Virus record (IMG/VR): IMGVR_UViG_3300045999_009044
Coordinates: 1 to 20,224 of that record
Direction: 5' to 3' (one strand)
Length of the DNA: 20,224 bases
DNA from: a virus
Shown piece by piece: positions 3,278-20,074 of the stretch. The stretch's first letter is position 1, and every line of letters starts with the position of its first letter. The position numbers were made by a program, and so were the translations under genes. Under the pieces are notes generated by a model that had not been told where the DNA came from, made no database searches, and saw only the letters and a list, made by a program, of their open reading frames with translations.

Positions 3278-3949
3278 ATGACCCTAGATCTTCATAACTT
3301 TTTTAAGTATTATGATGATAAGAACCCCAACCATGTTGCAGCGGTTCAGTGGTTGGAGGATAATCTTCCTGAAAAATTTTTAGATGATTCTCAATCTGAT
3401 TGGGTAAGCATTTTTAGAACTTCTCCACCAGCACCTGCGGTTCTAGATGTTCCTTATTTTAATCAAGTAGATAATTATAGAGATGCACATAGAACTTGCA
3501 ACTCTTCATCATGTGCTATGTGCCTTGCTTTCCTTAAGCCAGGAAGTATTAAAGGTGATGACGAATATGTTAAGAAAGTATTCGCAATCGGTGATACAAC
3601 CGACCACGCGGTTCAGACAAAGGTTCTCGCTGGTTATGGGGTTAAGTCTCATTTTAGCTACAATCTTTCCTTTTCTGATATTGATAAGAGCCTTGATAGT
3701 GGGAAGCCCGTTGTTATTGGTATTCTCCACAGGGGATCTTTAACTAGTCCCACTGGTGGACACATGTGCGTAGTGATTGGTAAGACCCCAGACGGTAAGG
3801 GATATTATGTAAATGATCCATATGGTTCTTTAAATGATAATTATTCTGGTCCTGTGACTAACGGTAAGAAAACCATTTACACCAAAGCAGTTCTTAAGCA
3901 CCGTTGGTGTCCAGGAGGTAATGATGGCTGGGGAAGAATCTTCGACTAA
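3278..3949 (+). CDS. C39-like papain-fold cysteine peptidase with N-terminal paralogous module
   Basis: Protein of 223 residues in two parts. Residues 1-47 (L-H-N-F-F-K-Y-Y-D-D, A-V-Q-W-L-E-D-N-L-P, ending W-x-x-I-F-R) closely match residues 1-47 of the gene at 4048. Residues 55-223 look like a peptidase C39-type domain: V-P-Y-F-N-Q63, candidate nucleophile C74 in R-T-C-N-S-S-S, H162 in G-G-H-M-C-V-V-I-G and D180 in V-N-D-P-Y-G. The usual C-G-P-T around the nucleophile is replaced by C-N-S-S. Related domains cleave peptides or peptidoglycan cross-bridges, so a virion or lysis hydrolase is likely but the substrate is unknown. ATG 3278 is preferred over a TTG at 3242 because it matches the paralogue's start and has GGAAG upstream. 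Confidence 0.75.
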   Translation: MTLDLHNFFKYYDDKNPNHVAAVQWLEDNLPEKFLDDSQSDWVSIFRTSPPAPAVLDVPYFNQVDNYRDAHRTCNSSSCAMCLAFLKPGSIKGDDEYVKKVFAIGDTTDHAVQTKVLAGYGVKSHFSYNLSFSDIDKSLDSGKPVVIGILHRGSLTSPTGGHMCVVIGKTPDGKGYYVNDPYGSLNDNYSGPVTNGKKTIYTKAVLKHRWCPGGNDGWGRIFD

Positions 3950-4061
3950 TTTCAAAGCTAAGATGCTTAAAGTGATTAAGGATCTTACAAATAACGGAAA
4001 GCATAAGGAAGCAAACGAACTCTATCAAAAGTATTTCGGAGGAAACGATGGCAAGAGTTGA
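3924..4061 (+). CDS. Small charged hypothetical protein (45 residues)
   Basis: ORF of 45 codons that overlaps the end of the peptidase gene by 26 bp and the start of the next gene by 14 bp, filling the gap between them. It begins M-A-G-E-E-S and is a Lys/Asn-rich amphipathic helix (A-K-M-L-K-V-I-K-D-L, E-A-N-E-L-Y-Q-K-Y-F). A very strong AGGAGG (3913-3918) lies five bases before ATG 3924, which argues that it is translated. No family recognised; it could be a small regulator or partner of the two flanking hydrolases. Confidence 0.6.
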   Translation: MAGEESSTNFKAKMLKVIKDLTNNGKHKEANELYQKYFGGNDGKS

Positions 4062-4272
4062 TTTACATAACTTTTTCAAATTTTATGATGATAGGAATCC
4101 AAGCCACGTCAAAGCAGTACAGTGGTTGGAAGATAATCTTCCAAATGATGTGCTTGAAGATGACGCAGATTGGGCAGATATTTATAGAGGAAAATCTGGT
4201 GGTGGATTATCTTCTGCTGCAGCACCTGCTGGTGATGTTTGCCCTCACTGCGGAAAATCTCTGGGAAAGTAA
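4048..4272 (+). CDS. N-terminal module and CPxCG knuckle, 0-frame product of a probable frameshift gene
   Basis: 74 residues in the 0 frame. Residues 1-47 are a paralogue of the N-terminus of the C39-like peptidase (shared L-H-N-F-F-K, D-D-x-N-P-x-H-V, A-V-Q-W-L-E-D-N-L-P). A Gly/Ala/Ser linker follows (about 48-62), then C-P-H-C-G-K, which looks like half of a zinc ribbon. The frame stops at TAA 4270-4272 directly after the heptamer GGGAAAG (4263-4269), and the -1 frame continues into the lysozyme. ATG 4048 has GGAGG (4038-4042) five bases upstream. I read this as the 5' half of a gene making a short product and, by -1 frameshifting, a 244-residue module-lysozyme fusion. A plain frameshift mutation or two separate genes are the alternatives. 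Confidence 0.8.
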   Translation: MARVDLHNFFKFYDDRNPSHVKAVQWLEDNLPNDVLEDDADWADIYRGKSGGGLSSAAAPAGDVCPHCGKSLGK

Positions 4273-4306
4273 ATAGCGGCGGTGGTGCTTCTGCTCCTGC
4301 TGCCGC
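4263..4306 (+). promoter_or_regulatory. Probable -1 programmed ribosomal frameshift signal
   Basis: The heptamer G GGA AAG (4263-4269) has the X XXY YYZ form in the correct frame and is the same heptamer used for the phage lambda G-T tail frameshift. The 0-frame stop TAA follows immediately. After a 6-nt spacer (4270-4275), bases 4276-4285 pair with 4297-4306 in a hairpin of ten pairs, including three G-U wobbles, with an 11-nt loop. After the shift, reading resumes at GTA 4269 and runs open to 4781. All three parts of a canonical signal are present; frequency and function are inferred. Confidence 0.75.
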
Positions 4307-4781
4307 AAGTGGTGATGATGTCCCTATGATGGGCATTAAGTTAATTAAGGAATTTGAAGGATGTCATTTATCGGCATATCCTGATCCTTTAACTGGTGGA
4401 CTTCCAATCACGATTGGTTGGGGTTCTACCAGAAACAAGAATGGGCAACCATTTCAAATGGGTGATACAATCACTCAGCAAGAAGCAGATGATCTGCTAA
4501 TTAGTCAGTGTAAGAACCAGTTTCTTCCTGCCCTTCGTAAAATCCCACATTGGAATGAAATGTCAGATGGAAAAAGAGGCGCTCTGCTCAGCTTTGCTTA
4601 TAATCTTGGTGCCGGTTTTTACGGTGGTGATAACTTTAATACTATTACTAAACGCTTGAAGAATAAAGAATGGGACTTAGTTCCCGATGCACTATTCCTC
4701 TACCGCAATCCTGGTTCAAATGTAGAAGCAGGACTTGCTCGCAGAAGAAAGGCAGAAGGTGAAGCTTGGAAGAAAAATTAA
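4269..4781 (+). CDS. GH24 (T4-type) lysozyme/endolysin, -1 frame half of a fusion
   Basis: Muramidase-type endolysin that cleaves peptidoglycan glycan strands. From ATG 4326 the catalytic domain has 151 residues, with E11 in K-E-F-E-G, D20 in Y-P-D-P and T29 in T-I-G-W-G, the family's Glu-Asp-Thr arrangement. Later family blocks include A-L-L-S-F-A-Y-N-L-G and a terminal G-L-A-R-R-R-x-x-E. Upstream of ATG 4326 the same frame encodes a Gly/Ala/Ser linker (V-N-S-G-G-G-A-S-A-P) continuous with the frameshift site, and no good Shine-Dalgarno precedes ATG 4326. The simplest reading is translation from 4048 with a -1 shift, giving a 244-residue protein. A standalone lysozyme from ATG 4326 or 4329 remains possible. 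A likely membrane protein follows, as in lysis cassettes. Confidence 0.9.
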   Translation, partial: VNSGGGASAPAAASGDDVPMMGIKLIKEFEGCHLSAYPDPLTGGLPITIGWGSTRNKNGQPFQMGDTITQQEADDLLISQCKNQFLPALRKIPHWNEMSDGKRGALLSFAYNLGAGFYGGDNFNTITKRLKNKEWDLVPDALFLYRNPGSNVEAGLARRRKAEGEAWKKN

Positions 4782-4835
4782 CTTCACTTACCAACTAAAA
4801 TGGAAAACATTAAGGCTAAAAAAAGAGAGGCATGT

Positions 4836-5228
4836 ATGAATAGCGTGATTCGTGTTGCCATTCTTGGATGGGCTGCTGCTCTACTTACCGCAAGTTATGC
4901 TGGTATGCTCTCCAAGATGGACCCAACTTTTATCGCTACTGTTTTCACAGCATCTGCTGCTACCTTTGGTATTAATACCATGAAGAAAGGTGATGATGAC
5001 GATGATAAAAAAGCAGAACTAAAAAGAGAAGAATTTGTAGAAACACCTCCAAATCCTCCAACACCACCAGAACCAGTTTGGGAAGAACCAGTTCAAACAA
5101 GAACTGAAGAATTATCATTAGTTGATACTGGAAACTCTGAAACATCAGATTCTTCTCTTGAGGAAAGAGTAGAAGCACTTGAGGCAAAAGTCGATGAAGA
5201 AAAACCATTTCAAAGAGGAGATCTCTAA
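4836..5228 (+). CDS. Two-helix membrane protein, candidate holin
   Basis: 130 residues with two hydrophobic segments (about 4-23 and 29-48) separated by a short turn, then an acidic, Pro-rich tail (P-P-N-P-P-T-P-P-E-P) and a possible coiled coil near the C-terminus (L-E-E-R-V-E-A-L-E-A-K-V). Position directly after the lysozyme and the two-helix hairpin suggest a class II holin, but holins usually lack such a long soluble tail, so a structural or spanin-like membrane protein is possible. ATG 4836 has GAGAGG (4825-4830) five bases upstream; ATG 4800 would add twelve basic residues. The stop overlaps the next start (TAATG). Confidence 0.65.
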   Translation: MNSVIRVAILGWAAALLTASYAGMLSKMDPTFIATVFTASAATFGINTMKKGDDDDDKKAELKREEFVETPPNPPTPPEPVWEEPVQTRTEELSLVDTGNSETSDSSLEERVEALEAKVDEEKPFQRGDL

Positions 5229-11665: not shown

Positions 11666-13219
11666 ATGGCAATAAAAATACAAGGGAATATAATAATTGA
11701 TGATGGTAGAAATATAGTTAATGCTGGAATTTCTACTTTAAGTGGTGTTACTGTAAAATCTGGAATCATAACAGCATCTCCAAGTGTTGGAATAGTAACT
11801 TATTATGGGGATGGGCAATACTTGTTAAATATACCTGGTTCTTCAGGTTCTCAAGGAACTCAAGGAACTCAAGGTATAACTGGTTCTCAAGGAACTCAAG
11901 GAACTCAAGGTATAACTGGTTCTCAAGGAACTCAAGGAACTCAAGGTATAACTGGTTCTCAAGGAACTCAAGGTATAACTGGTTCTCAAGGAACTCAAGG
12001 AACTCAAGGTACTTCTGGTCCAGTAGCGGGTTCTGCCAATCAGGTTGTTTATAAAGATGCTTCTAACAATCCTACTGGTTCTGGAAATTTAACTTTTGAT
12101 GGTGCTAATCTTTATGTTGGTGGTAATGTTACGATTGGTGGAACAAGTTTTATTGTTGCTGCTAATACATTAACAGTAAAAGATAAGGATATTGTTGTTG
12201 GTCTTGCTACTACTGCCGGTGGTATTGATATATCTAATGATACGACAGCAAATCATGGTGGTGTTGCGGTTGCTTCAACTGAAGGAAGTCCATTAATTGA
12301 TATTAATGCTGGTGTTGGTACTGATGACATTCCATCCACATATAAGCAAATTATGTGGATTAAGTCTGGTACTTTTTCTGGATTGAATACTGATGCTTGG
12401 ATATTTAACTATGGTGTTGGTATTGGAAGCACTCAAATTCCTAATGGGGTAAGACTTGCTGCCGGTGGTATGCAGGTTACTGATAGTACATTAAGTATTC
12501 CTCAACTTAATATTTCTGGCGTTTCTACCTTTAGTGGCACATTAGAATTATCTGGTGGTCTTAAAGATAAATTTAATACTGTTGGTGTCGCTGGTTCTAT
12601 TCTTATTTCCACTGGTGCTGGGATTTCTTGGACAGCACCTTATGCTGCTGGTCTTCAAGGAATACAAGGAATTCAGGGTACTCAAGGAACATTGGGTACT
12701 CAAGGAATTCAGGGTACTCAAGGAACATTGGGTACTCAAGGAATTCAGGGTACTCAAGGAACATTGGGTACTCAAGGAACATTGGGTACTCAAGGAATTC
12801 AAGGTATAAGTGTGCAAGGAATTCAGGGTACTCAAGGAACATTGGGTACTCAAGGAATTCAAGGTATAAGTGTGCAAGGAATTCAGGGTACTCAAGGAAT
12901 TCAAGGTATAAGTGTGCAAGGAATTCAGGGTACTCAAGGAACATTTGGTACTCAAGGGATTCAAGGTATTCAAGGACCTTCTGGATCAGGAAGTGTTGGC
13001 ACTGGAGTTTCAATCTATGTTTCATCATCTCCTCCAAATATTTCTACTTCTGTTGGGAATTATTGGGTTGATGAAGATGATGGCGTAACTTATACATGGT
13101 TTGATGATGGTAATTCTAAACAGTGGGTTGAATTTGGCCCTACTCCTCAAACTATCTCTACCACTTCTGTTAGTGTTGGTGGTGGTTTTAATGAATTGGA
13201 TGCAGCACTATTCTCATAA
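11666..13219 (+). CDS. Collagen-like repeat tail fibre protein
   Basis: 517 residues. An N-terminal beta-like section (I-I-D-D-G-R-N-I-V-N-A-G-I-S-T-L) is followed by a first collagen-like Gly-X-Y array (about 58-117) made of a 12-residue unit G-S-Q-G-T-Q-G-T-Q-G-I-T. A central non-repetitive beta-rich domain (about 118-328) follows. The second Gly-X-Y array (about 329-438) uses units such as G-T-Q-G-I-Q and G-T-L with three I-S-V-Q interruptions. The C-terminus has a short domain (N-Y-W-V-D-E-D-D-G-V-T-Y-T-W-F-D-D-G). Collagen-like arrays in phage proteins form trimeric rods, so this is probably a long fibre or a linker holding the small proteins downstream. A late-promoter-like motif precedes it. 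The partner at 13242 is probably co-expressed. Confidence 0.85.
   Translation: MAIKIQGNIIIDDGRNIVNAGISTLSGVTVKSGIITASPSVGIVTYYGDGQYLLNIPGSSGSQGTQGTQGITGSQGTQGTQGITGSQGTQGTQGITGSQGTQGITGSQGTQGTQGTSGPVAGSANQVVYKDASNNPTGSGNLTFDGANLYVGGNVTIGGTSFIVAANTLTVKDKDIVVGLATTAGGIDISNDTTANHGGVAVASTEGSPLIDINAGVGTDDIPSTYKQIMWIKSGTFSGLNTDAWIFNYGVGIGSTQIPNGVRLAAGGMQVTDSTLSIPQLNISGVSTFSGTLELSGGLKDKFNTVGVAGSILISTGAGISWTAPYAAGLQGIQGIQGTQGTLGTQGIQGTQGTLGTQGIQGTQGTLGTQGTLGTQGIQGISVQGIQGTQGTLGTQGIQGISVQGIQGTQGIQGISVQGIQGTQGTFGTQGIQGIQGPSGSGSVGTGVSIYVSSSPPNISTSVGNYWVDEDDGVTYTWFDDGNSKQWVEFGPTPQTISTTSVSVGGGFNELDAALFS
11844..12016 (+). repeat. Collagen-coding repeat array 1
   Basis: Tandem 36-bp units coding G-S-Q-G-T-Q-G-T-Q-G-I-T: three full copies, one copy lacking a 9-bp triplet, and a last copy ending G-T-S. 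Near-identity at DNA level suggests recent slippage or recombination. Confidence 0.9.
12654..12980 (+). repeat. Collagen-coding repeat array 2
   Basis: About 330 bp of near-identical Gly-X-Y coding units (GGAATTCAGGGTACTCAAGG and close variants). Very similar DNA recurs in the same orientation at 15421-15740, which gives substrate for homologous recombination. Confidence 0.9.
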
Positions 13220-15315: not shown

Positions 15316-15792
15316 GTGGCAATAAATTTTCCATCTTCACCTACAATTGGATTAACAACCACCACAGGATCAAAAACGTGGGAGTGGACTGGTGAGGCTT
15401 GGAAATTGCAAGCAGTTGCTGGAGTGCAGGGGATTCAGGGGATTCAGGGATTACAAGGATCTCAAGGAATTCAAGGTCTTCAGGGAACTGATGGACAATT
15501 TGCCGGGCAAGGTATCCAGGGTATCCAGGGTATTCAGGGATATCAAGGAATTCAAGGAATAGAAGGTGCCCAAGGGACATTGGGAACTCAAGGAATACAA
15601 GGTACTCAAGGAACATTGGGTACTCAAGGAATTCAAGGAATTCAAGGAATAGAAGGTGCTCAAGGAACATTGGGTACTCAAGGAATACAAGGTATAAGTG
15701 TACAAGGAATTCAGGGTATTCAAGGACCTGCCGGAAGTGGGGGGACTGGAGATGCCGCATTAGACATTATAGAAATAATGTTATTCGCATAA
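15316..15792 (+). CDS. Short collagen-like repeat fibre protein
   Basis: 158 residues. A 35-residue N-terminal domain (M-A-I-N-F-P-S-S-P-T-I-G, then K-T-W-E-W-T-G-E-A-W) is followed by an almost continuous Gly-X-Y array (about 36-142) with one I-S-V-Q interruption and a short hydrophobic tail. The array DNA closely matches the second array at 12654-12980. The N-terminal W-E-W-T-G-E-A-W motif is common in phage tail proteins of this type. Probably a short trimeric fibre or connector working with the partner at 15817. The start is GTG. Confidence 0.82.
   Translation: MAINFPSSPTIGLTTTTGSKTWEWTGEAWKLQAVAGVQGIQGIQGLQGSQGIQGLQGTDGQFAGQGIQGIQGIQGYQGIQGIEGAQGTLGTQGIQGTQGTLGTQGIQGIQGIEGAQGTLGTQGIQGISVQGIQGIQGPAGSGGTGDAALDIIEIMLFA
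15421..15740 (+). repeat. Collagen-coding repeat array 3
   Basis: About 320 bp of Gly-X-Y coding repeats, near-identical in places to array 2 (for example CATTGGGTACTCAAGGAAT in both). It has the same orientation as array 2, and about 2.4 kb of adhesin genes lie between them. Confidence 0.88.
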
Positions 15793-19905: not shown

Positions 19906-19984
19906 AAATAGGTAAACAAATGTTAAGGAATTCACACAATTCTTAACATTGTCAACACCCTGTAAACCGAGACCTCTAGGGTGT
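19880..19984. repeat. Interrupted inverted repeat spanning the psbA promoter and leader
   Basis: ACACCCTCAGAGGTC (19880-19894) is the reverse complement of GACCTCTAGGGTGT (19971-19984) except for one extra base. The left arm overlaps the -35 box and the right arm lies in the leader. An operator or a duplicated site is possible. Confidence 0.7.
19904..19910 (+). promoter_or_regulatory. T4-type late promoter-like motif overlapping the psbA -10
   Basis: ATAAATA at 19904-19910 shares two bases with TATGAT. If both are used, psbA would have overlapping host-type and late phage promoters with nearly the same start. Confidence 0.45.
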
Positions 19985-20024
19985 ATAAATTACGTCTCTC
20001 ATACCCCGCCTGAGGGTGGCGGGG
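19919..20024 (+). promoter_or_regulatory. Structured psbA 5' leader with three hairpins
   Basis: Three stems can be drawn: 19919-19932 with 19938-19950 (13 pairs, one bulged base, loop CACAC); 19955-19961 with 19978-19984 (7 pairs); and 20004-20010 with 20018-20024 (CCCCGCC/GGCGGGG, loop of 7). None has a T-run, so they are not standard terminators. They could control mRNA stability or translation, as leaders of psbA messages do in cyanobacteria. The rest of 19857-20074 holds no convincing ORF. Confidence 0.65.
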
Positions 20025-20074
20025 GAATAGTATAACCACCATTTCCCTGATGGTCTTACTACTCTTTTAAACAA

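Follow-up and report, generated by a model that had tools for sequence, protein, structure and literature searches.

A probable programmed -1 frameshift between an N-terminal module and a lysozyme, with a signal conserved among cyanophages

The module-lysozyme locus

The window, that is, the whole stretch of 20,224 nt of viral DNA analysed here (IMG/VR record IMGVR_UViG_3300045999_009044), carries next to a peptidase gene a short open reading frame that is followed by a lysozyme in the -1 frame. The locus comprises the following features:

3278–3949 (+): adjacent gene for a module and a C39-like peptidase; same N-terminal module as the short product, ends GRIFD before the stop, without a heptamer
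4038–4042 (+): Shine-Dalgarno-like GGAGG, read directly
4048–4272 (+): 74-aa short product made up of N-terminal module, linker and CPxCG knuckle; Shine-Dalgarno-led start, kept in 29 distinct relatives
4048–4194 (+): N-terminal module, 49 aa (DLHNFF...QWLEDNLP...W..IYRG); matches phrog_10051 and phrog_3617
4240–4269 (+): CPHCGKSLGK, a single CxxC zinc-knuckle-like end with the heptamer within its last codons; from the sequence and its relatives
4263–4269 (+): slippery heptamer G_GGA_AAG; invariant in 29/29 distinct relatives, with zero synonymous variation of GGA and AAG
4269–4325 (+): -1-frame linker VNSGGGASAPAAASGDDVP; reachable from 4048 solely by frameshift, no -1 stops in relatives
4270–4272 (+): 0-frame stop TAA (TAA or TAG in relatives), directly 3′ of the heptamer
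4276–4306 (+): GC-rich RNA hairpin, probable stimulator, spaced 6 nt from the heptamer; relatives retain the stem and show compensatory changes
4332–4781 (+): GH24 lysozyme domain in the -1 frame, including its stop; PF00959, E=5.8e-22, E-D-T triad

The short 0-frame ORF encodes 74 aa with the C-terminal end ...CPHCGKSLGK, and its last codons read TCT CTG GGA AAG TAA. The heptamer lies in the 0-frame register X_XXY_YYZ with the stop adjoining, a register that permits simultaneous slippage to GGG AAA and has GTA as the next -1 codon. From 4269 the -1 frame is free of stops as far as 4779–4781, giving a predicted frameshift product of 74+170=244 aa; heptamer, stop, spacer, hairpin and -1 ORF stand in the right order for a -1 frameshift. 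The lysozyme frame matches the Phage_lysozyme profile PF00959 over 125/125 positions, with candidate triad residues at E4356, D4383 and T4410, which we take from family knowledge to be the E-D-T triad of GH24 lysozymes. At its end (GGDDVP) the linker shows homology to that of the in-frame fusions. Heptamer, stop, hairpin and -1 frame had been noticed in an earlier sequence-only reading of the window: the in-frame heptamer before TAA proved correct when read again, as did the -1 frame open through the linker into a full GH24 lysozyme.

Start signals differ between the two frames. The ATG at 4048 has GGAGG 5 nt upstream; by contrast, the first lysozyme ATG (4326) is preceded at ~10 nt only by a weak GGTGA, which doubles as linker coding sequence, in agreement with the earlier remark that it lacks a good ribosome site. 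Because the -1 frame opens 27 nt ahead of the heptamer and includes a TTG (4239), the window taken alone leaves room for a weak internal start, and it is the sequences of the relatives, not its own, that exclude one. The heptamer itself is not unusual by frequency (3 copies of GGGAAAG observed in the window vs 3.2 expected); we therefore rejected its occurrence as evidence on its own, and the whole case rests on comparison. Judged in this way, the position, register and conservation of GGGAAAG exceed chance.

The hairpin placed by the sequence-only reading six bases downstream of the heptamer has a predicted energy of -20.9 kcal/mol, and 0/200 dinucleotide shuffles of the region 4270–4310 folded as well. 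A role as terminator was rejected since no U run follows it, and Rfam held no known RNA family at the frameshift site at gathering level.

The 49-aa module heads both the short product and the neighbouring C39 peptidase. It matched no Pfam or NCBIfam family above cut-off, no solved relative was found and its AlphaFold model is weak (pLDDT 59). Its place at the head of both a peptidase and a lysozyme points to targeting as its possible role. A further ORF of 46 codons (MMAGEESSTNFKAKMLKVIKDL...), closely preceded by AGGAGG, occupies 3921–4061 (+) and, in frames different from theirs, runs across the 3′ end of the C39 gene into the beginning of the module gene; the corresponding position in DSL-LC02 holds a hypothetical gene of 127 aa.

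Conservation of the signal in two gene contexts

Using the module and the lysozyme as queries, we collected ~155 viral loci; in those whose module ends CPHCGK(S/P)LGK, the stop is immediately preceded by GGGAAAG and a -1-frame lysozyme follows. To avoid circularity, we searched IMG/VR for the peptide CPHCGK[x]LGK followed by a stop while allowing synonymous codons at the heptamer (YTN GGN AAR). All 37 of the 37 contigs recovered, representing 29 distinct sequences, had GGGAAAG before the stop and then a -1-frame lysozyme. The Cys, Pro, His, Gly and Lys codons that shortly precede the heptamer differ in their third positions (for one Gly codon GGT 16, GGA 6, GGC 6 and GGG 1 among the 29 distinct sequences), and no upstream Shine-Dalgarno-like stimulator is conserved in these relatives. 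The heptamer codons GGA and AAG, on the other hand, have zero synonymous entropy, vs a mean of 0.82 bits for the module codons, and the Leu codon before GGA ends in G in every distinct relative. In the genes of the window AAG makes up 22% of Lys codons, GGA 45% of Gly codons and CTG plus TTG 19% of Leu codons.

In just over half of this group the -1 frame is closed by a stop 6 nt upstream of the heptamer, which confines the frame change to the stretch between that stop and the 0-frame stop. In two loci of the group, L010 and L029, the -1 linker from heptamer to lysozyme is devoid of ATG, GTG and TTG; a possible -1-frame start upstream of the heptamer is present in 12/27 loci. Not one -1-frame stop was found in the 619 linker codons of 27 GGGAAAG relatives, nor in the 1291 linker codons of this and the C39 group combined. 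The earlier proposal of a probable -1 programmed frameshift is strengthened by the 37 contigs, and the loss of the heptamer with both frames kept, a pattern that would speak against it, occurs in 0/29 sequences here and once, accompanied by GTGA, in the C39 group (L268).

The same arrangement is present on module-C39 peptidase genes of other cyanophages. In the cultured phage S-PM2 the gene ends GAT GCA AAA AAG TAA, its stop adjoining A_AAA_AAG, and is followed by a -1-frame lysozyme that lacks a start codon; the site is identical in two genome records. Genes of this type end GRIFDAKK or similar, compared with the plain GRIFD of the window's equivalent. We compared distinct C39 loci with a lysozyme within 160 nt (n=53) and without one (n=123). 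The lysozyme was in the -1 frame in 53/53 cases, and a heptamer stood at the 0-frame end in 52/53 (48 AAAAAAG, 3 TTTTTTT, the S-CAM7 type that is the same in three isolates, and 1 AAAAAAA), vs 0/123 genes without a following lysozyme (Fisher p=3e-44, uncorrected for relatedness and to be taken cautiously, since relatives are not independent). The sole locus without a heptamer is again L268, where a restart-like GTGA overlap is found instead. Between the point at which the -1 frame opens and the lysozyme, 31/47 loci of this type have no ATG, GTG or TTG. The annotated lysins of S-PM2 (S-PM2p157, L195 3229–3447) and likewise of S-CAM7 (L198 2699–2971, L306 1753–1971) were called from internal ATGs, which leaves out the catalytic N-terminal part; on the sequences at hand, these should be read as putative -1 extensions of the upstream gene.

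ATGA or GTGA overlaps were seen at the C39-lysozyme junctions of L199, L234, L247, L262, L263 and L268. L247, with AAAAAAA, and L268, without a heptamer, may represent a switch from frameshift to coupled restart. That some C39-type phages combine the heptamer with such an overlap or replace it by one suggests coupled restart as the nearest alternative route to the lysozyme in these phages.

Downstream stems and in-frame relatives

A stem can form behind the heptamer in nearly all loci of both groups, mostly 2–8 nt downstream and with 7–16 bp; in the window's group the helix begins 2–6 nt after the heptamer in 26/27 loci. Pairing is kept despite differing sequence, as in GGGACAGCA/TGCTGTCC of L017 vs GGGGCAGTA/TACTGCCC of L030, next to the GCGGC/GCCGC stem in the window's set, and the C39 group likewise has stems of differing sequence (GCCAACTAA/TTAGTTGGC, TCAACACCACA/TGTGGTGTTGA and CTCTACTCC/GGAGTAGAG). 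In a 19-member subfamily of the C39 group, 98.1% of cells pair and 4 pairs are changed on both sides, whereas control structures slid by 1–3 columns pair at only 29–49%. Against synonymous recoding, the mean z was -2.1 for the window's group, -2.0 for the C39 group and -0.8 for in-frame fusions. The stability beyond that of synonymous codons is real but moderate because Gly/Ala-rich linkers fold well anyway.

Around 100 related loci fuse module and lysozyme in one frame. They form a separate sequence type with another linker and no heptamer; some, e.g. L031–L033, L035 and L036, carry the single CxxC knuckle, still without GGGAAAG. In-frame C39-lysozyme fusions without a heptamer are also found in other cyanophages (ACG-2014f and others). 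Set against the possibility of an indel that joins both parts in one frame, the split arrangement is met again in many contigs that are independent of each other. The length of the linkers varies freely. On the lysozyme tree, split and fused forms are interleaved, with 15 changes in all and weak support. Close relatives being fused in frame and interleaved with split ones, a frameshift is not required for the enzyme as such, and the trait appears to be gained, lost or exchanged rather easily.

Two cyanophage genomes show other arrangements. S-CREM1 (L196 2980–4161) has the reversed order, lysozyme followed by module and C39 peptidase, in one frame. In S-CRM01 (L194 2286–3595) it is the lysozyme domain that is divided over the 0 and -1 frames, near AAAGAAAAAGATGG; further on, the -1 frame encodes a stretch that by eye resembles an L,D-transpeptidase (HGGG..THGCIRM). 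This split is either an error or another frameshift; with no canonical heptamer and a single genome, we set it aside as a further case.

Interpretation and alternative routes to the lysozyme

We consider a -1 programmed ribosomal frameshift that gives a short product and a minor lysozyme-bearing extension to be the most probable reading of the locus (probability about 0.9), and its best supported part is that the putative signal is conserved over a wide group of cyanophages. Ribosomes would start at ATG 4048 and most would stop at TAA 4270, yielding the 74-residue module protein. A fraction would slip at G_GGA_AAG to GGG AAA with the hairpin 6 nt ahead, read GTA and pass the flexible linker into the GH24 lysozyme, yielding the minor 244-residue fusion. 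In S-PM2, S-CAM7 and many uncultivated relatives, A_AAA_AAG or U_UUU_UUU ends the module-C39 gene, and the S-PM2-type device would yield the peptidase alone and a peptidase-lysozyme. The common theme would be an N-terminal partner, module or module-peptidase, made in excess. We infer that the signal sets the ratio of this short product to the lysozyme-bearing one, which would leave the lysozyme-bearing endolysin sub-stoichiometric to its partner, and that both products matter, the lysozyme-bearing form being the minor one.

The lysozyme might instead be a separate gene, translated from its own ATG through leaky or coupled re-initiation by ribosomes that have terminated at 4270, with the heptamer incidental. 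ATG 4326 with its weak GGTGA, the restart-like ATGA or GTGA overlaps in S-SRM01, L234, L247, L262, L263 and L268 and the lost heptamer of the C39-type L268 would fit this, but start codons are lacking between the -1 opening and the lysozyme in the majority of C39-type loci and after the heptamer in L010 and L029, the linker ahead of the ATG contains no stop and resembles that of the in-frame fusions at its end, and the heptamer is invariant at synonymous sites. Taken together, this makes an own start very unlikely. Somewhat more room, while still improbable, is left for a neutral 'saviour' frameshift, in which a linker indel landed at slippery codons and was tolerated and the short product has no role. 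The interleaving of in-frame and split forms on the tree and the freely varying linker length are compatible with such an origin; on the other side stand the several kinds of heptamer in two gene contexts with the stop almost directly behind, the stimulatory-looking stem with its compensatory changes and the wide persistence of a state from which in-frame mutants are just one indel away.

RNA polymerase slippage on homopolymers, in place of ribosomal slippage, is plausible for the eight-T run of S-CAM7 and for A6/A7 runs, but GGGAAAG has no run longer than 3, the codon register relative to the 0-frame is conserved and the stem sits at ribosomal spacing; we regard it as a still fainter prospect than an own start of the lysozyme. 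Least credible is that the split stems from faulty sequencing or assembly or from the decay of a fusion gene. The source is a metagenomic contig and in-frame fusions are common among the relatives, yet the split form is common to the 29 distinct sequences in 37 contigs, an analogous site exists in the isolates S-PM2 (two records) and S-CAM7 (three isolates), and the lysozyme and linker frames are intact. All records would need one shared artefact, and the explanation is already contradicted.

The proposed ribosomal frameshift has several known counterparts. Among tailed phages, the best-known cases of programmed frameshifting are in tail assembly genes, and G_GGA_AAG is the heptamer of the lambda G/G-T tail assembly chaperone frameshift. 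There and in other tail -1 frameshifts with this heptamer, the minor product is a C-terminal extension of the major one, as predicted here; in the present case the product is a lysis enzyme (GH24, PF00959) beside a C39 peptidase and not a tail chaperone, with a stem-loop 2–8 nt after the heptamer and the stop directly behind it. The S-PM2-type sites share heptamer and downstream stem with the A_AAA_AAG frameshifts of E. coli dnaX and IS elements but differ in that no conserved upstream Shine-Dalgarno-like stimulator was seen and the extension adds a catalytic domain. The cyanophage endolysins of phrog_3617 and phrog_10051 (module-C39-lysozyme and lysozyme-module-C39), including the fused ACG-2014f, have the same domains in one frame, where here they would be joined by a -1 frameshift. 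Frameshifting of the X_XXY_YYZ type is well known, and G_GGA_AAG is highly shift-prone in E. coli (PMC5009743).

The statement of the sequence-only reading that it knew of no described frameshift-controlled phage lysozyme stands for cyanophages, for which no description was found in the literature searched, and the portion of the Atkins 2016 review covered here names no lysozyme or endolysin case. For phages in general it needs a qualification: the PRFect paper (PMC10885494) names lysins as one of the kinds of gene with a known frameshift and refers for this to Shearman 1994 on the lysin of a lactococcal phage. That lysin, from another host, consists of two overlapping genes and is said to involve a frameshift. 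A conserved frameshifted cyanophage lysozyme thus seems not to have been described previously. A full enzyme and a shorter partner are likewise obtained from one gene in the internal-start endolysins Lys170, CTP1L, CD27L and LysP7951, whose two polypeptides provide extra C-terminal binding domains that assemble with the enzyme (PMC9430671, PMC4777826). These share the C terminus, use in-frame starts and are described from phages of Gram-positive hosts, whereas here the N terminus would be shared and the join is out of frame. An internal start alone cannot produce a shared N-terminal part, whereas a frameshift can, and stopping some ribosomes early would be a way to extra N-terminal partner.

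Tentatively, and with rather low confidence, we suggest that the abundant 0-frame product, be it the module with its CPxCG knuckle or the module-peptidase, assembles with the rare extension into a multi-subunit endolysin built by frameshifting, in which the slip rate sets the subunit ratio and thereby the timing or strength of lysis. If true, this would be the N-terminal counterpart of the internal-start endolysins, in phages of a Gram-negative-type host. The main reading by itself, a frameshift acting on a lysis enzyme, would cover two gene contexts and several kinds of slippery site, conserved among freshwater and marine cyanophages, the cultured S-PM2 included. Being read by frameshift would account for the lysozyme without a start codon in many genomes, and the lysin genes of S-PM2 and S-CAM7, now annotated from starts that remove the catalytic N-terminal part, would be corrected. 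The slip rate offers a testable handle on the amount of lysozyme that such phages make, and frameshifting may be a general way for a single gene to supply an enzyme with additional N-terminal partners.

The gene that immediately follows the lysozyme, at 4800–5228 (+), codes for a small protein that has two hydrophobic segments and a tail of charged residues; it matches phrog_721, 2714 and 21865, all of unknown function, and is a holin candidate by position. Elsewhere in the window, long collagen-like GTQGIQG repeats at 11666–13219 and 15316–15792 (+) mark probable tail fibre proteins, and a PhotoRC-II RNA (RF01717, 86.4 bits), a cis-regulatory RNA in Rfam, lies at 19944–20038 (+).
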